IMG/VR virus record: IMGVR_UViG_3300027771_000023
Location: 1 to 50,882 of that record
Reading direction: 5' to 3' (one strand)
Source: a virus
Length of the DNA stretch: 50,882 nt
Shown in pieces: positions 21,221-28,890 of this stretch (its first letter is position 1; every line of letters starts with the position of its first letter). The translations under genes and the position numbers were made by a program. The notes below the pieces were generated by a model. That model was not told the origin of the DNA, made no database searches, and was given only the letters and a program-made list of their open reading frames with translations.

Positions 21221-21916
21221 TCATTTTACTGCCATTGCTCCTACGAACATATGATTTCTCCAAAAAGGTTGGACATCCACAAACCCAGCAGCATACAACA
21301 TGTTACTTAATTCATTCCAAGTGTTTGGTTTCATCATATGCCGTAATGTTCTTTCTTTGTCCATAATATCTTCTGTATCAAAAGACTGTCTCTTATAATC
21401 ATAATAGTTGAATGTAAGCATATCTTGGAATACTGCATTCTCACAGATTGTCTTTTCTGAAAAGATAAAGGCCCCACCATCATTTAACCCATCATATATG
21501 GTTTTTAAAACTGTAAGTCTATCTCTTTTTGGCATAAATTGTAAAGTAAAGATAGACGTTACAAGAGATGCGTTTTCAATAGTTGTGTTACGAATATCCT
21601 CCAATCGAAAATCTACAGAACACCAAGGATGTAATTCGGCTAACAAACCTTTGCGTTCTTCTAAATCATCAAAAAAACCTTCGGCAATTTCAACTCCAAT
21701 GTAGTTTGCATCACAACAGTGATCTTGGTTAGCCTCCAACATACGTTGTGTTAGTTTACCAGTTGAACACCCAATGTCATATACATTAGTTCCGTCTTCA
21801 ACAAAGTAACGGGACATTGCAATTACATCTTCTAGAAGATTACCATAGCCACGAATACTCTTTTCGATGTGTTCATCAAAACCTTCTTCTCTGTGTGCAA
21901 ATGTAAAATCAGCCAT
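21221..21916 (-). CDS. cmoA: CmoA-like carboxy-S-adenosyl-L-methionine synthase
   Basis: 231 aa. E. coli CmoA converts SAM and prephenate to carboxy-SAM (CxSAM). The match to CmoA as I remember it runs the whole length: FDEHIEKSIRGYGN (E. coli: IQRSVPGYSN), NVYDIGCS (45-51), DIRNTTIENASLV, FTLQFMPKRDR, YDGLNDGGAFIFSEK (141-155), YDYKRQS and a later KERTL (187-191), which may supply the CmoA carboxylate-binding Arg. This pattern separates it from ordinary SAM methyltransferases. The start is ATG 21916 (MADFTF), with GGAGAAG upstream; a longer frame from 21955 lacks a good site. It overlaps the DNA methyltransferase stop by 8 nt. No CmoB partner is visible, so the product may serve DNA rather than tRNA modification (inference). 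Confidence 0.88.
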   Translation of the reverse strand: MADFTFAHREEGFDEHIEKSIRGYGNLLEDVIAMSRYFVEDGTNVYDIGCSTGKLTQRMLEANQDHCCDANYIGVEIAEGFFDDLEERKGLLAELHPWCSVDFRLEDIRNTTIENASLVTSIFTLQFMPKRDRLTVLKTIYDGLNDGGAFIFSEKTICENAVFQDMLTFNYYDYKRQSFDTEDIMDKERTLRHMMKPNTWNELSNMLYAAGFVDVQPFWRNHMFVGAMAVK

Positions 21917-23105
21917 TATACTTCTCCAATACTTTTTCATAAACGGATGTTGCAATTGCCTTCATCATTAGTGGCGGCACCATCCTACCAATTCGTTCTG
22001 CCTTCTGATTCCACTTACCTGTAAGTTTGAAATCATCTGGTAGAGACATAATTCTTTTCAATTCACCTAGTGTTAACTTTCTTGGTTCAATCCAATGGAA
22101 TGCCCCAGCAGTTGTATCTGCACTACCCATTGCAGTCAGAGTTGGAGCTGGTGCGTATTGTGACACACGTTTCAGATTGAAGTGATGTCCTTTAGGATGA
22201 TAATCACCACCAGTGAGAACTTTCTCTGGGTCAATTGGCATCTTACTTCCTGTCTGTTTCCAGTATGCAGTATTAGTAAACTTCTCTGTTAGATACTTCA
22301 CCTCTTCTGCATCATATTCCAAACCAACCATCACATCCTTGACAGGTATAACTATATTACTTGGGTCTGGGAATAGTGTTGATAGTGACATAAAGTTTAA
22401 TCCAATAGAAGATAAAACGTCTTGTCTAACTGCAATAAAAATAACCCTTGATCTAGTTTGTGAAACACCATAGTATCGACTATCTAAAACTTGGGCGCAC
22501 ACCTCATATCCAATCTCTTCAAATGTATTAAGAATTTTGTTGAAATATGTCTTGGCCTCACCTATAGTCAATCCTTTTACATTCTCTGCAATAATTACTT
22601 TAGGTTTAATTTCTTCAGCAATACGCAAGAACTCAAAGAACAAGTCTTCAATGTTTTCTACTGTCTTCCCGTCAGAATAGTTTTTAGTTTGATTCCAACC
22701 ATCAGAATGTTTACCACTTACCTTTTCGATTGTAACATTACCAAACAAGTCTATACGTTCTTCTTCATGTATATTGTGTGACAATTTCCCTGCGACACTA
22801 AATGCAGAACATGGGGGTGACCCATCAAGTATGTCTAACTCACCAACACCAATACCAGCTGCATCAAGGAAATCTTTACCAGACAGTTCCTTGATATCGT
22901 CTGGTAATATTACAGTGTCAGGATAGTTCTCAGCATATGTGTTCCGCCCCTCCAGCACGAACTCATTTGCCACAAGGACTTTACCCCCTGCAAGTTTATA
23001 ACCACAGGATGAACCGCCCCCACCAGAAAATGTTGATATCACAGTAAATTTGTTTTGTGCAGACGCATCATATACGTCTTGTAGGTTATAAGGTACATAT
23101 TTCAT
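21909..23105 (-). CDS. C5-cytosine DNA methyltransferase with Arg in motif X (candidate carboxymethyltransferase)
   Basis: 398 aa. All C5-MTase motifs are present: I ISTFSGGGGSS (24-33), IV DGSPPCSAFS (94-103, catalytic Cys99), VI IIAENVKGL (ENV 174-176), VIII SQTRSRVIF (QxRxR, 216-220), a target-recognition region at about 230-345, and motif X RIGRMVPPLMMKAI. In ordinary enzymes motif X reads G-N-x-V-P; here the Asn is Arg374 (codon AGG, 21984-21986). Asn to Lys/Arg at this position is the change I recall making a CpG enzyme accept carboxy-SAM. With cmoA next door, the likely product is 5-carboxymethylcytosine (inference). It overlaps both neighbours. An ordinary methylase against restriction remains the alternative. 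Confidence 0.93.
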   Translation of the reverse strand: MKYVPYNLQDVYDASAQNKFTVISTFSGGGGSSCGYKLAGGKVLVANEFVLEGRNTYAENYPDTVILPDDIKELSGKDFLDAAGIGVGELDILDGSPPCSAFSVAGKLSHNIHEEERIDLFGNVTIEKVSGKHSDGWNQTKNYSDGKTVENIEDLFFEFLRIAEEIKPKVIIAENVKGLTIGEAKTYFNKILNTFEEIGYEVCAQVLDSRYYGVSQTRSRVIFIAVRQDVLSSIGLNFMSLSTLFPDPSNIVIPVKDVMVGLEYDAEEVKYLTEKFTNTAYWKQTGSKMPIDPEKVLTGGDYHPKGHHFNLKRVSQYAPAPTLTAMGSADTTAGAFHWIEPRKLTLGELKRIMSLPDDFKLTGKWNQKAERIGRMVPPLMMKAIATSVYEKVLEKYNG

Positions 23106-23920
23106 ACAAAAAACTCCTCTAAAGTGTCCTTACTATTTAGCGTGTTCCAATCTCTACATATGTCCATTATTCTACTCCTGTTCTTAAAGTTTACTGTCGG
23201 ATCATCTATCAATGATTCGAATAACTCTATTATACCAGAATCTATCTGTAAATTCAAGTGGTTTTTCACTTTTCCTATCAATTTAAATTCATCAAACGCA
23301 TTCCTTACATGGTGCTTCTGAAAGGGTTTATTCAATTCATCCCAACTCTTACTATAGAAAAACTTCTTAACACTATCCGTTAAGTATGGTGTAATGAACT
23401 TTTTGTTATGTGAGTCTGAAACTTTTCGATGCTGCAAATAGCCAGCACAATTCTCAGGCAGAAAATAATTATCTCTAAACTTGTCAAACAATTCTTGTGT
23501 ATGTTTGAAATGCATCATTGCCTTTTTACTGAGACCATAATACCCATCAGCGGCCCAGCCTGACAAAACTTCCGTTTCCTCTATTTGACCATACGCATAT
23601 AGAAATGGATATACACACTCAAAATGGGTCTTCTTTCTAGAGCCCAATTTTACTAGTCTATGGAAATCTTCAACCAGATTATTAGTTGGAACTTTGATGC
23701 CTGTAAATTCCCACTTACAAATTTCAGCAATCTCTTTTGCCTTTATGTAGTCATATGACTCATGCGTATCTAAGCAAAAGCTATATGCGTGAATTATTTT
23801 ACCTAATCTTTGTGCAGCGAATGCTACTGAAATTGAGTCAGCACCGCCAGAAAGCAGCACTGCACATTTGTCAGAATCAGATACTTTACTAATTTCATTT
23901 TCTAACAGTTTGTCAATCAT
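23102..23920 (-). CDS. Asparagine-synthase-like PP-loop ATPase without glutaminase domain
   Basis: 272 aa. PP-loop CAVLLSGGADSISVAFA (SGGADS at 24-29) and the AsnB-type second motif LSGWAADGYYGLSKKAM (119-135), then ITPYLTDSVKKFFYS and FQKHHVRNAF, which match the C-terminal synthetase domain of asparagine synthase. The N-terminal Cys-nucleophile glutaminase domain is absent, so ammonia must come from elsewhere. The known chemistry of the family is ATP activation of a carboxylate to acyl-AMP and amidation. In this operon a carboxylate on the base would be a natural substrate, giving 5-carbamoylmethylcytosine (inference). It overlaps both neighbours by ATGA. tRNA-type or queuosine-type PP-loop enzymes are less similar. 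Confidence 0.8.
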   Translation of the reverse strand: MIDKLLENEISKVSDSDKCAVLLSGGADSISVAFAAQRLGKIIHAYSFCLDTHESYDYIKAKEIAEICKWEFTGIKVPTNNLVEDFHRLVKLGSRKKTHFECVYPFLYAYGQIEETEVLSGWAADGYYGLSKKAMMHFKHTQELFDKFRDNYFLPENCAGYLQHRKVSDSHNKKFITPYLTDSVKKFFYSKSWDELNKPFQKHHVRNAFDEFKLIGKVKNHLNLQIDSGIIELFESLIDDPTVNFKNRSRIMDICRDWNTLNSKDTLEEFFV

Positions 23921-25002
23921 ATATCAAGACGTTCCCATGGCTTCCCATCAATACCAACAAGATCAATCTCTTTAGCAGTACCTTCATCATTATTAATTCT
24001 TTCTACATCTTGAGCAAAGAAACCATTAAAAGTTAAAGGAAATCTTCCCTTACTTCTTGTTTCAACTTCAGATATTGGCATATCAATATAATATGAAACC
24101 CATTTATTAAACATAGGTTCCATACGATCAAATTCTTCACATATTTCTTTACGTTTAATATCAAGAGTTTTAGGATTGGGTTCATCAACCCAAGTCGTGA
24201 GATATACCTTTTGAAAACTATTCTTTACACTTAAAGTCATTCCATCCCAAAAAAAGTTTTTCAATGCAGTAAACTTTCGAGCATAACCAAAAGATGTAGT
24301 CTTTTCGTTCTTCATACCCTCAAATGGTAGATTTAATCTTGTGGCTTCTTTCTTTGCTCGACTTGTACTCAATGCTTTCATAGTAGACCAACGAGAGATG
24401 TGTTCTTTACGAAGCGTTTTTAAGATAGGTTCGTGCCATTTGGGTTTGCTACGACATATTAGTTCAAGGTATTTGAGGATTGCCTCATCAGTATCTACAA
24501 TGAGGTTACTAACAACAGCATTAACTACAGACTTTAAGATAGTAGTTTTGGAATTTGCAACCGCTGGTGCATTGTGTTCTTCATCATCATTAGAATTACA
24601 TTTGAAAACCTCAAGCTTCATTTCTGTATCATACTCAACTATATCATAAATTGCAGTTTCCCAACTAAGCCTGTCTTGAGCAGCATTTCTTCCATAACCA
24701 ACTATTCCTTTAAACATTTTAGGATCATCTTTATCTACAATAATTGCTTGTGGTGGTTTTGTATACAAAAACCCTACATTTGAATAAGAGTTCTCTATTC
24801 CATCAACACGTTCTTCACCAGAATCTTCTTCACGAATTTGTTCTGAAATTTTGAATGACACTTTAGAACGATTTAATACAAGACGTTTCTTAAATGTAAT
24901 GCCGGGGAACAATGGTTTCCCATCAGTTCCTAATTGCATATAGTACATTTCTGGTGGACATTCTCTAAGCGACCTATCTAGGTCAAACTGTATTTTAGTC
25001 AT
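23917..25002 (-). CDS. ParB/Srx-fold-like protein, first gene of the modification operon
   Basis: 361 aa from ATG 25002, placed after a strong AAGGAGGA site; the longer frame starts inside the leader. Residues about 80-160 resemble a ParB-type domain: PPQAIIVD, then GIVGYGRNAAQDRLSW (the G-x-x-R-x-x-A core, Arg105), AIYDIVEYD, and NDDEEHNAPAVANSK. The remainder (about 165-361) is helical and unassigned. ParB-fold proteins use CTP or ATP, or act as nucleases or kinases; phage members occur near DNA-modification genes. Possible roles: DNA specificity, a nucleotide-dependent step, or regulation. The match is by eye and moderate. Confidence 0.6.
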   Translation of the reverse strand: MTKIQFDLDRSLRECPPEMYYMQLGTDGKPLFPGITFKKRLVLNRSKVSFKISEQIREEDSGEERVDGIENSYSNVGFLYTKPPQAIIVDKDDPKMFKGIVGYGRNAAQDRLSWETAIYDIVEYDTEMKLEVFKCNSNDDEEHNAPAVANSKTTILKSVVNAVVSNLIVDTDEAILKYLELICRSKPKWHEPILKTLRKEHISRWSTMKALSTSRAKKEATRLNLPFEGMKNEKTTSFGYARKFTALKNFFWDGMTLSVKNSFQKVYLTTWVDEPNPKTLDIKRKEICEEFDRMEPMFNKWVSYYIDMPISEVETRSKGRFPLTFNGFFAQDVERINNDEGTAKEIDLVGIDGKPWERLDI

Positions 25003-25026
25003 ATTTTCCTCCTTATTGGTTATGAC

Positions 25027-25047
25027 AAGGTAGTAATATACTACCTT
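25027..25047 (-). promoter_or_regulatory. Palindromic leader element of the modification operon
   Basis: Minus strand AAGGTAGTA-TAT-TACTACCTT: a perfect 9-bp inverted repeat with a 3-nt centre, between the promoter and the ribosome site. There is no T run. It may be a repressor operator or an RNA hairpin controlling translation. Confidence 0.65.
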
Positions 25048-25082
25048 CTTGGTAATAAAAGAAATATTCAATTATTACAGTT

Positions 25083-28120: not shown

Positions 28121-28505
28121 TTTTTCCACCTTTAATCAAACTATCCTTAATAGTTTGTATTTGTTCATTATTAAGTACCGATAGAGCAACCTTCGCCTTC
28201 TCATTACTATAACCATAATACTCTTTAATACAATCCAAATCATCTAACTTTTCTGCCTTAACCCAAGGCGCGAATCGTTTCTTTGATCTAATAGTATTTA
28301 GTAAAAAATCATACTGTAGTTTTGCGTCAAGGTGGTGACGCATATTCATTTCATTAACGAACATAATGGTTTCATGGAAAGGAGATAGACACCTATTGAC
28401 AACATAGGCTGGATACTTCTTTTCCCACATAGGATCATCTGAATCCATCAGATTTTCCTTAGTGTGATTGATTGAGTTGAGGTAATGCTTTAGTTCATAT
28501 GACAT
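28107..28505 (-). CDS. 62: Clamp loader small subunit (T4 gp62)
   Basis: 132 aa. The opening MSYELKHYLNSINHTKENLM and the ending SLIKGGKNGRN agree with T4-like gp62 as I recall it, and the context (after 44, before regA) is exact. It forms the 44/62 complex that loads clamp 45. It is shorter than T4 gp62 (187 aa), as in other marine relatives. The start overlaps the end of the HNH gene (11 nt). Confidence 0.85.
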   Translation of the reverse strand: MSYELKHYLNSINHTKENLMDSDDPMWEKKYPAYVVNRCLSPFHETIMFVNEMNMRHHLDAKLQYDFLLNTIRSKKRFAPWVKAEKLDDLDCIKEYYGYSNEKAKVALSVLNNEQIQTIKDSLIKGGKNGRN

Positions 28506-28890
28506 TGTACGACTCGTATGTATTTGTATTTTTAAAATTATCTGATGGAGTAGTCCATCTTAAATTAGAAGATTTTGCATTTTGTCTATCCCTATCAATA
28601 TGGTCTATATCACCATGAGTAAAGTAGAAATCAAACCTTTCTTTATACATAAATTGTTCCCATATGTCTTTTCTCAAAAATGATGGACACGGAAAATCTA
28701 AATGAGTTAGTGCAACTGCTCTGTGGACATAAGTATTTTTTCTTACACCATCAATATTAAAAGAAAATGATGGATACTCTTTTCTTGGATATAATTTTAA
28801 TTGATTAAGTCTATCTCTATTAAATACTCTCCCATAATTACTAATAAGATAATTAGGTTTTAATGGGTAAGGTTTCCATAACTCTTTCAT
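28495..28890 (-). CDS. HNH homing endonuclease with NUMOD4 domain
   Basis: 131 aa. The N-terminal ELWKPYPLKPNYLISNYGRV is a NUMOD4 motif; VHRAVALTH and DIDHIDRDRQNAKSSNLRWT form the HNH catalytic region (His-Asp-His and Asn). Such free-standing endonucleases cut alleles lacking the gene and spread by repair. It sits between genes 44 and 62 with a 4-nt overlap upstream and an 11-nt overlap downstream, so it entered without breaking translational coupling. It is more AT-rich than its neighbours by eye, consistent with transfer. Confidence 0.9.
   Translation of the reverse strand: MKELWKPYPLKPNYLISNYGRVFNRDRLNQLKLYPRKEYPSFSFNIDGVRKNTYVHRAVALTHLDFPCPSFLRKDIWEQFMYKERFDFYFTHGDIDHIDRDRQNAKSSNLRWTTPSDNFKNTNTYESYNVI

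Follow-up and report, generated by a model that had tools for sequence, protein, structure and literature searches.

The closest described system is that of Synechococcus phage S-B43, for which Yang et al. (Nat Commun, 7 Dec 2025; PMC12783734) characterized the three proteins CmoA, CmoX and CmoY. According to the main text of that paper, S-B43 CmoA makes carboxy-SAM with a kcat tenfold above that of the E. coli enzyme, CmoX (PDB 8YF3), whose Arg350 binds the carboxylate, carboxymethylates the C5 position of cytosine in GC sites, and CmoY joins glycine. Carboxy-SAM is contacted in CmoX by F25, E47, F48 and D69, C98 is the nucleophile, and the wild-type enzyme takes carboxy-SAM only. Both 5cxmC and 5gcxmC are formed by the S-B43 enzymes, in vitro as well as in E. 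coli cells; 5gcxmC also occurs in native phage DNA, and carboxymethylated DNA resists HhaI. The same report gathered 5,615 candidate CmoX sequences from IMG/VR v4, UniProt and MGnify, described ligase clusters with differing active-site residues and raised SAM depletion as an open question; its introduction states that bacterial CmoA homologues serve CmoB. In E. coli CmoA, Arg199 binds the carboxymethyl group through a salt bridge, while N132, N90 and other residues bind the remainder of the cofactor (PMC3663124). Beyond PMC12783734 we found no other literature on phage CmoA or CmoX in the sources covered, most subscription papers and all bioRxiv preprints being outside their scope.

The DNA analysed here, a whole 50,882-base IMG/VR contig from a marine phage referred to throughout as the window, carries homologues of all three proteins in the order CmoY-CmoX-CmoA (Table 1). 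We interpret these genes, with high confidence, as a cassette for DNA hypermodification that follows the published CmoA-CmoX-CmoY scheme. It is a further example of that pathway and not a new system, and the contig may already be within the CmoX set of PMC12783734. The identity of the genes, their order, their key residues and their co-conservation were observed directly. A first-pass annotation of this DNA had recognized CmoA and the overlapping C5-MTase but had not picked up the ligase gene, CmoY.

Table 1. Positions of the cassette genes and of the open reading frame adjoining them in the window
Feature	Position	Strand	Remarks
CmoA, predicted carboxy-SAM synthase	21221..21916	minus	231 aa from ATG 21916; S-B43-type phage clade
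CmoX, predicted DNA cytosine C5-carboxymethyltransferase	21909..23105	minus	398 aa; SPPC 96-99, Arg374 in motif X
CmoY, predicted ATP-dependent amide ligase, asparagine-synthetase C-domain type	23102..23920	minus	272 aa
Open reading frame without assigned role	23917..25071	minus	384 aa from TTG; alternative ATG at 25002

The CmoA reading frame was confirmed, and its homology and fold extend over the full length of bacterial CmoA. The CmoA profile TIGR00740 matches the translation at E 2.9e-36 over positions 13-239 of 239; only three PDB sequences match at E <= 0.001, all of them CmoA/YecO (best 3e-27), and the six top PDB fold matches of the AlphaFold model (mean pLDDT 88.1) are likewise CmoA/YecO chains. 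The five motifs named in the first pass (RGYGN, YDIGCS, FTLQF, GGAFIFSEK and YDYKR) are all present. Identity to S-B43 CmoA is 59% over 229 aa by BLASTP, and 69 of 50,697 named phage records match the window protein at E <= 1e-5. As read by eye, GGAG lies just 5' of the start codon given in Table 1; the longer reading in the list of open reading frames, from an upstream TTG, would give 244 aa. The overlap with the C5-MTase reading frame, which had also been noticed before, amounts to 8 bp.

On sequence grounds this overlapping C5-MTase is a clear CmoX. Its best solved relative is the S-B43 enzyme itself (8yf3_A, E 3.2e-143), with 58% identity over 392 aa by BLASTP. Motif X reads ERIGRMVPP, and Arg374 occupies the place of Asn304 of HhaI. 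The S-B43 residues F25, E47, F48, D69 and C98 are all kept as F26, E48, F49, D70 and C99, and S95-P-P-C98 and R350 are kept as SPPC 96-99 and R374, so that both search criteria of PMC12783734, the SPPC motif and an Arg350 equivalent, are found in the window protein. Two insertions relative to S-B43 CmoX were detected, one of 17 residues after SVAGK and one of six residues near 328-333. The earlier idea that the carboxy-SAM is meant for DNA is therefore supported and very probably right, the MTase being a CmoX in which Arg374, the cofactor residues and the catalytic Cys are kept; it is no longer new, as it has been shown in S-B43 (PMC12783734). The observed/expected ratio of GC in the window is 0.91, a slight depletion that is uninformative as a modification footprint and speaks neither for nor against a GC site.

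CmoY overlaps CmoX by 4 bp. The protein matches PF00733 (E 1.5e-10), contains an SGGADS PP-loop and shows no match to a glutaminase (GATase) domain in Pfam. Its model (pLDDT 88.9) resembles beta-lactam and asparagine synthetases, with a TM score by query length of 0.71 to both 1mc1_A and 1ct9_D. BLASTP gives 48% identity over 263 columns to S-B43 CmoY, which is 271 aa long, and 58 of the 50,697 named phage records match at E <= 1e-5. Among the matches listed, S-B43, S-B05 and RB11-B have all three proteins near 48-59% identity. Upstream, the 384-aa reading frame overlaps CmoY by 4 bp through an ATGA junction and a homologue of it adjoins the cassette in some relatives; it is perhaps in one transcription unit with the cassette. 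It gave no match in Pfam, PHROG or NCBIfam, and a ‘gp32-like’ label for it is without support.

How might the three proteins act together? By analogy with the S-B43 proteins, we expect the same activities in the window proteins, GC as the target site and, probably, glycine as the amine joined by CmoY. CmoA would convert SAM and host prephenate into carboxy-SAM. CmoX, in which the motif-X Asn is replaced by Arg, would transfer the carboxymethyl group from carboxy-SAM onto C5 of cytosine, in GC sites if it follows the S-B43 enzyme. CmoY would then activate the carboxylate with ATP, and an amine, most likely glycine, would be joined to it. DNA modified in this way would resist some host restriction enzymes.

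The last step may differ between relatives. IMG/VR was scanned with each of the three proteins, and the 80 best loci were kept from 191 relatives of CmoX, 423 of CmoA and 258 of CmoY (loci are designated L). The ligase slot before CmoX varies even where CmoX itself shares 77-93% identity with that of the window. It may hold SpCmoY-like ligases with 46-85% identity to the window CmoY or, in 4/80 loci by best match, a glutaminase-type synthetase; those of L073 and L086 have 474 aa each, and the domain was confirmed by Pfam for L073. In L046 the slot shows a weak ParB-like match, below the cut-off, and elsewhere it contains unassigned proteins or no ligase was found. It is possible, although we think it unlikely, that the cassette works but that CmoY adds another amino acid, ammonia or another amine, giving a final base different from that of S-B43. 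This variable slot would fit such a reading, as would the ligase clusters with other active-site residues in PMC12783734 and the lower conservation of CmoY compared with the other two proteins (48% versus 58-59%). The window CmoY, however, is of the same type as that of S-B43 in size, in fold, in its place next to CmoX and in that no glutaminase domain was found, and glycine is the amine that we favour.

The surroundings of the cassette vary as well. The window DNA polymerase shares 77% identity with its counterpart in the Methylophilales phage Melnitz, the closest named phage, and at most 54% with those of the cyanophages listed. Considering loci with more than 2.5 kb upstream, a polymerase lies upstream in 27/41 CmoX loci and in 40/48 Melnitz-type loci; the clamp loader and gp41 helicase, which also served as neighbourhood markers, were labelled by eye. 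A NUMOD4/HNH homing-type endonuclease gene is found at window positions 28495-28890, directly before the clamp-loader-like reading frame, also named by eye. In L437, L438, L440 and L441, genes for a Tet_JBP oxygenase and for a glycosyltransferase of the TET-associated type (PF20691; e.g. L075:5998-10809) lie in the neighbourhood of CmoX and CmoA, and no match to CmoY was found within these four loci, whose four contigs perhaps represent two phages by the pairwise figures. On the contigs of L075 and L076, both of which were scanned, CmoX is the only PF00145 gene. Of the six loci found with that TET, four also contain CmoX and CmoA; in L442 the sequence breaks off ahead of their place, and L439 carries the TET and glycosyltransferase but no CmoX. 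On these counts, the pair as an obligatory partner of CmoX is a mere lead.

Four slot contents are seen in close relatives. CmoA/CmoX may be accompanied by a ligase of glycine type, by one of glutaminase type or, with no ligase, by a TET oxygenase and a TET-associated glycosyltransferase nearby; the fourth content is a pair of Leu-type MTase and TET. We speculate, with considerable doubt, that the slot behind the DNA polymerase in these T4-like marine phages serves as a plug-in position for cytosine-modifying genes that gives different final bases in sister phages, oxidized and glycosylated carboxymethylcytosine included, and that the amine in the window need not be glycine. Two further arrangements were observed. 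In the cyanophages S-CRM01 and RN05-S (L003 and L004), CmoA and CmoX are adjacent with no match to the window CmoY at E 1e-5; their final base may be carboxymethylcytosine, or a different ligase may act. In Moraxella phage Mcat8 (L088:3869-5576; 40.7 kb), an Arg-type C5-MTase adjoins a very divergent CmoA-like gene, and the notion that the Mcat8 CmoX relies on a host CmoA is accordingly wrong.

Co-conservation ties CmoA to CmoX. In the CmoX-anchored set, the 80 best of 191, CmoA is present in 79/80 loci and a CmoY-type ligase in 56/80; the sole locus without CmoA (L068) is truncated by the end of its contig. Anchoring on CmoA (80 best of 423) recovers CmoX in 79/80, the miss (L157) having 6 bp upstream before its contig ends, and anchoring on CmoY (80 best of 258) recovers it in 74/80. 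In three of the CmoY loci without CmoX (L167, L189 and L208) the sequence ends within 110 bp; in L204, L205 and L207 there is no CmoX in 3.8-4.0 kb downstream, and only 0.2-1.0 kb is visible upstream. In these last three loci CmoX may sit further upstream or at another place, or the ligase may act on a different base. The motif-X Arg is present in every locus scored, namely 80/80 CmoX-anchored, 79/79 CmoA-anchored and 62/62 CmoY-anchored, a further 12 CmoY loci not being covered there. Contigs recur among the three sets, which do not represent independent lineages, and the counts, taken from near relatives, partly reflect descent. As a control we used the Melnitz-type C5-MTase family (80 best of 178 loci, L235-L314), a single family whose uniformity is partly descent. 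At the motif-X position, where Asn is usual, Leu occurs in 80/80 of its loci; in the flanks, which extend to at most 3.5 kb, CmoA or CmoY was found in 0/80 and a TET/JBP oxygenase in 65/80, with 11 loci lacking it and four too short.

Could CmoA instead feed tRNA, raising cmo5U34 through a host CmoB next to an ordinary 5mC enzyme? Bacterial CmoA homologues do serve CmoB (PMC12783734), and the host could provide it. Nevertheless we consider this very improbable, as the MTase carries the Arg associated with carboxy-SAM in place of Asn, CmoA stands beside CmoX in 79/80 of the CmoX loci described above, wild-type S-B43 CmoX uses carboxy-SAM only (PMC12783734), and the window contains neither CmoB (no match to TIGR00452) nor a detectable tRNA gene. 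The first-pass observation that CmoB is missing thus holds for the window, and no CmoB match was found either in the three virus records from relatives that were searched (203.8, 49.2 and 44.6 kb). The window is probably a fragment, since it has 50,882 bases compared with the 141 kb genome of the closest named relative, and the phage may carry a cmoB elsewhere. That CmoA is kept mainly as a SAM drain against SAM-dependent host defences, with DNA carboxymethylation secondary, takes up the SAM-depletion question left in PMC12783734, but selection for a SAM drain alone would not be expected to couple CmoA so closely to an Arg-type CmoX, and we give this equally little credence.

If the window CmoA supplies CmoX, as we propose, it would do so with an altered cofactor site. 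Relative to the E. coli enzyme, E stands in place of R199, I in place of both N132 and N90, E in place of D89 and L in place of A70, while Y39, D62, G64, S66, D117, I118, F137 and E164 are common to both. The ‘full-length agreement’ with CmoA claimed in the first pass consequently stands for homology, fold and motifs; it does not extend to these five changed residues or to the TIGR00740 score, which at 119.8 bits is below the NCBIfam cut-off of 193.3 bits; the nine further phage or virus records tested, among them S-B43, all fall short of it too. S-B43 CmoA has E, L and L at positions 199, 132 and 90, and E occupies position 199 in 72/72 IMG/VR loci with a near-complete CmoA (out of 80 kept). 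Other phage CmoAs have R (Pseudomonas PaBG and Erwinia SNUABM_23), Q (Staphylococcus F1), A (TurkishDelight) or E (Mcat8) there. Among bacterial CmoAs, in a sample that leans to E. coli kin, R199 is found in 109/110 and N132 in 110/110. This sample is made up of the 80 best of 579 relatives found with the E. coli protein as bait, together with the top 30 of 76 matches from 200 genomes belonging to one phylum; a search of bacterial genomes with S-B43 CmoA had yielded no confirmed relative, and the E. coli protein was used in its place.

Phylogeny had been recommended as a check in the first pass. In a tree of 53 rows the window and S-B43 CmoAs fall within a 17-row phage clade (support 100/99), and 31 bacterial rows lie across a branch with support 100/99; the placement of the long branches of Mcat8 and TurkishDelight is unreliable. 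We file the window protein with the S-B43-type phage clade and not with bacterial CmoA because position 199 is E, as opposed to R in 109/110 bacterial proteins. Judged by its residues, this clade has a rebuilt carboxy-SAM site. Compensation for R199E by an Arg shifted by +4 (E203 of E. coli to R) is not established: the window, S-B43, S-CRM01, RN05-S, Staphylococcus phage F1 and TurkishDelight all have R at position 203, yet the residue varies among the 72 IMG/VR loci (R in 48, K in 13, Q in 11). The main text of PMC12783734 makes no mention of Arg199. Loss of the CmoA binding residues had been put forward as grounds for rejecting the assignment; Arg199 is indeed lost, yet that test would have misled because the active S-B43 CmoA is also without it. 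A note of caution follows: Arg199, an accepted CmoA signature residue, is dispensable in the S-B43-type phage clade, since E199 is also present in the active S-B43 enzyme.

What does the cassette add to the published pathway? It extends the December 2025 report of carboxymethylcytosine as a natural, widespread phage base to another lineage: its closest named relative is a phage of a marine methylotroph, not of Synechococcus. Moreover, the hypermodifying step differs between near relatives at this locus, which makes the locus a practical place to seek new amide or oxidized bases. The altered CmoA site, the ligase exchange at a fixed locus and the neighbourhood of TET and glycosyltransferase were not found in the main text of PMC12783734.

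The window was compared with four known systems. Like E. coli CmoA (4GEK, 4IWN), its predicted carboxy-SAM synthase has the CmoA fold and eight of the cofactor-site residues; it differs in sharing 31% identity, in belonging to a separate phage clade and in having no CmoB partner seen in the window. The OM43 phage Melnitz (MZ577098) carries modification genes in the same interval, between polymerase and MazG/UvsX, but these are a Leu-type MTase 39% identical to the window CmoX and a Tet_JBP oxygenase (L087:4001-6185), and no CmoA match was found in the 9.2 kb of Melnitz examined. Engineered M.MpeI N374K (PMC12783734) resembles the window CmoX in that the motif-X Asn is swapped for a basic residue, a change that lets the former accept carboxy-SAM; that enzyme, however, is engineered, has Lys and acts on CG, whereas the window enzyme is natural and has Arg, and S-B43 CmoX uses GC. 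The nearest counterpart is S-B43 (MN018232), with the same three proteins, the same named CmoX residues and three overlapping genes on one strand. The two differ in gene order, A-Y-X there and Y-X-A in the window, their proteins are 48-59% identical, and the core genes of the window point to a non-cyanophage relative.
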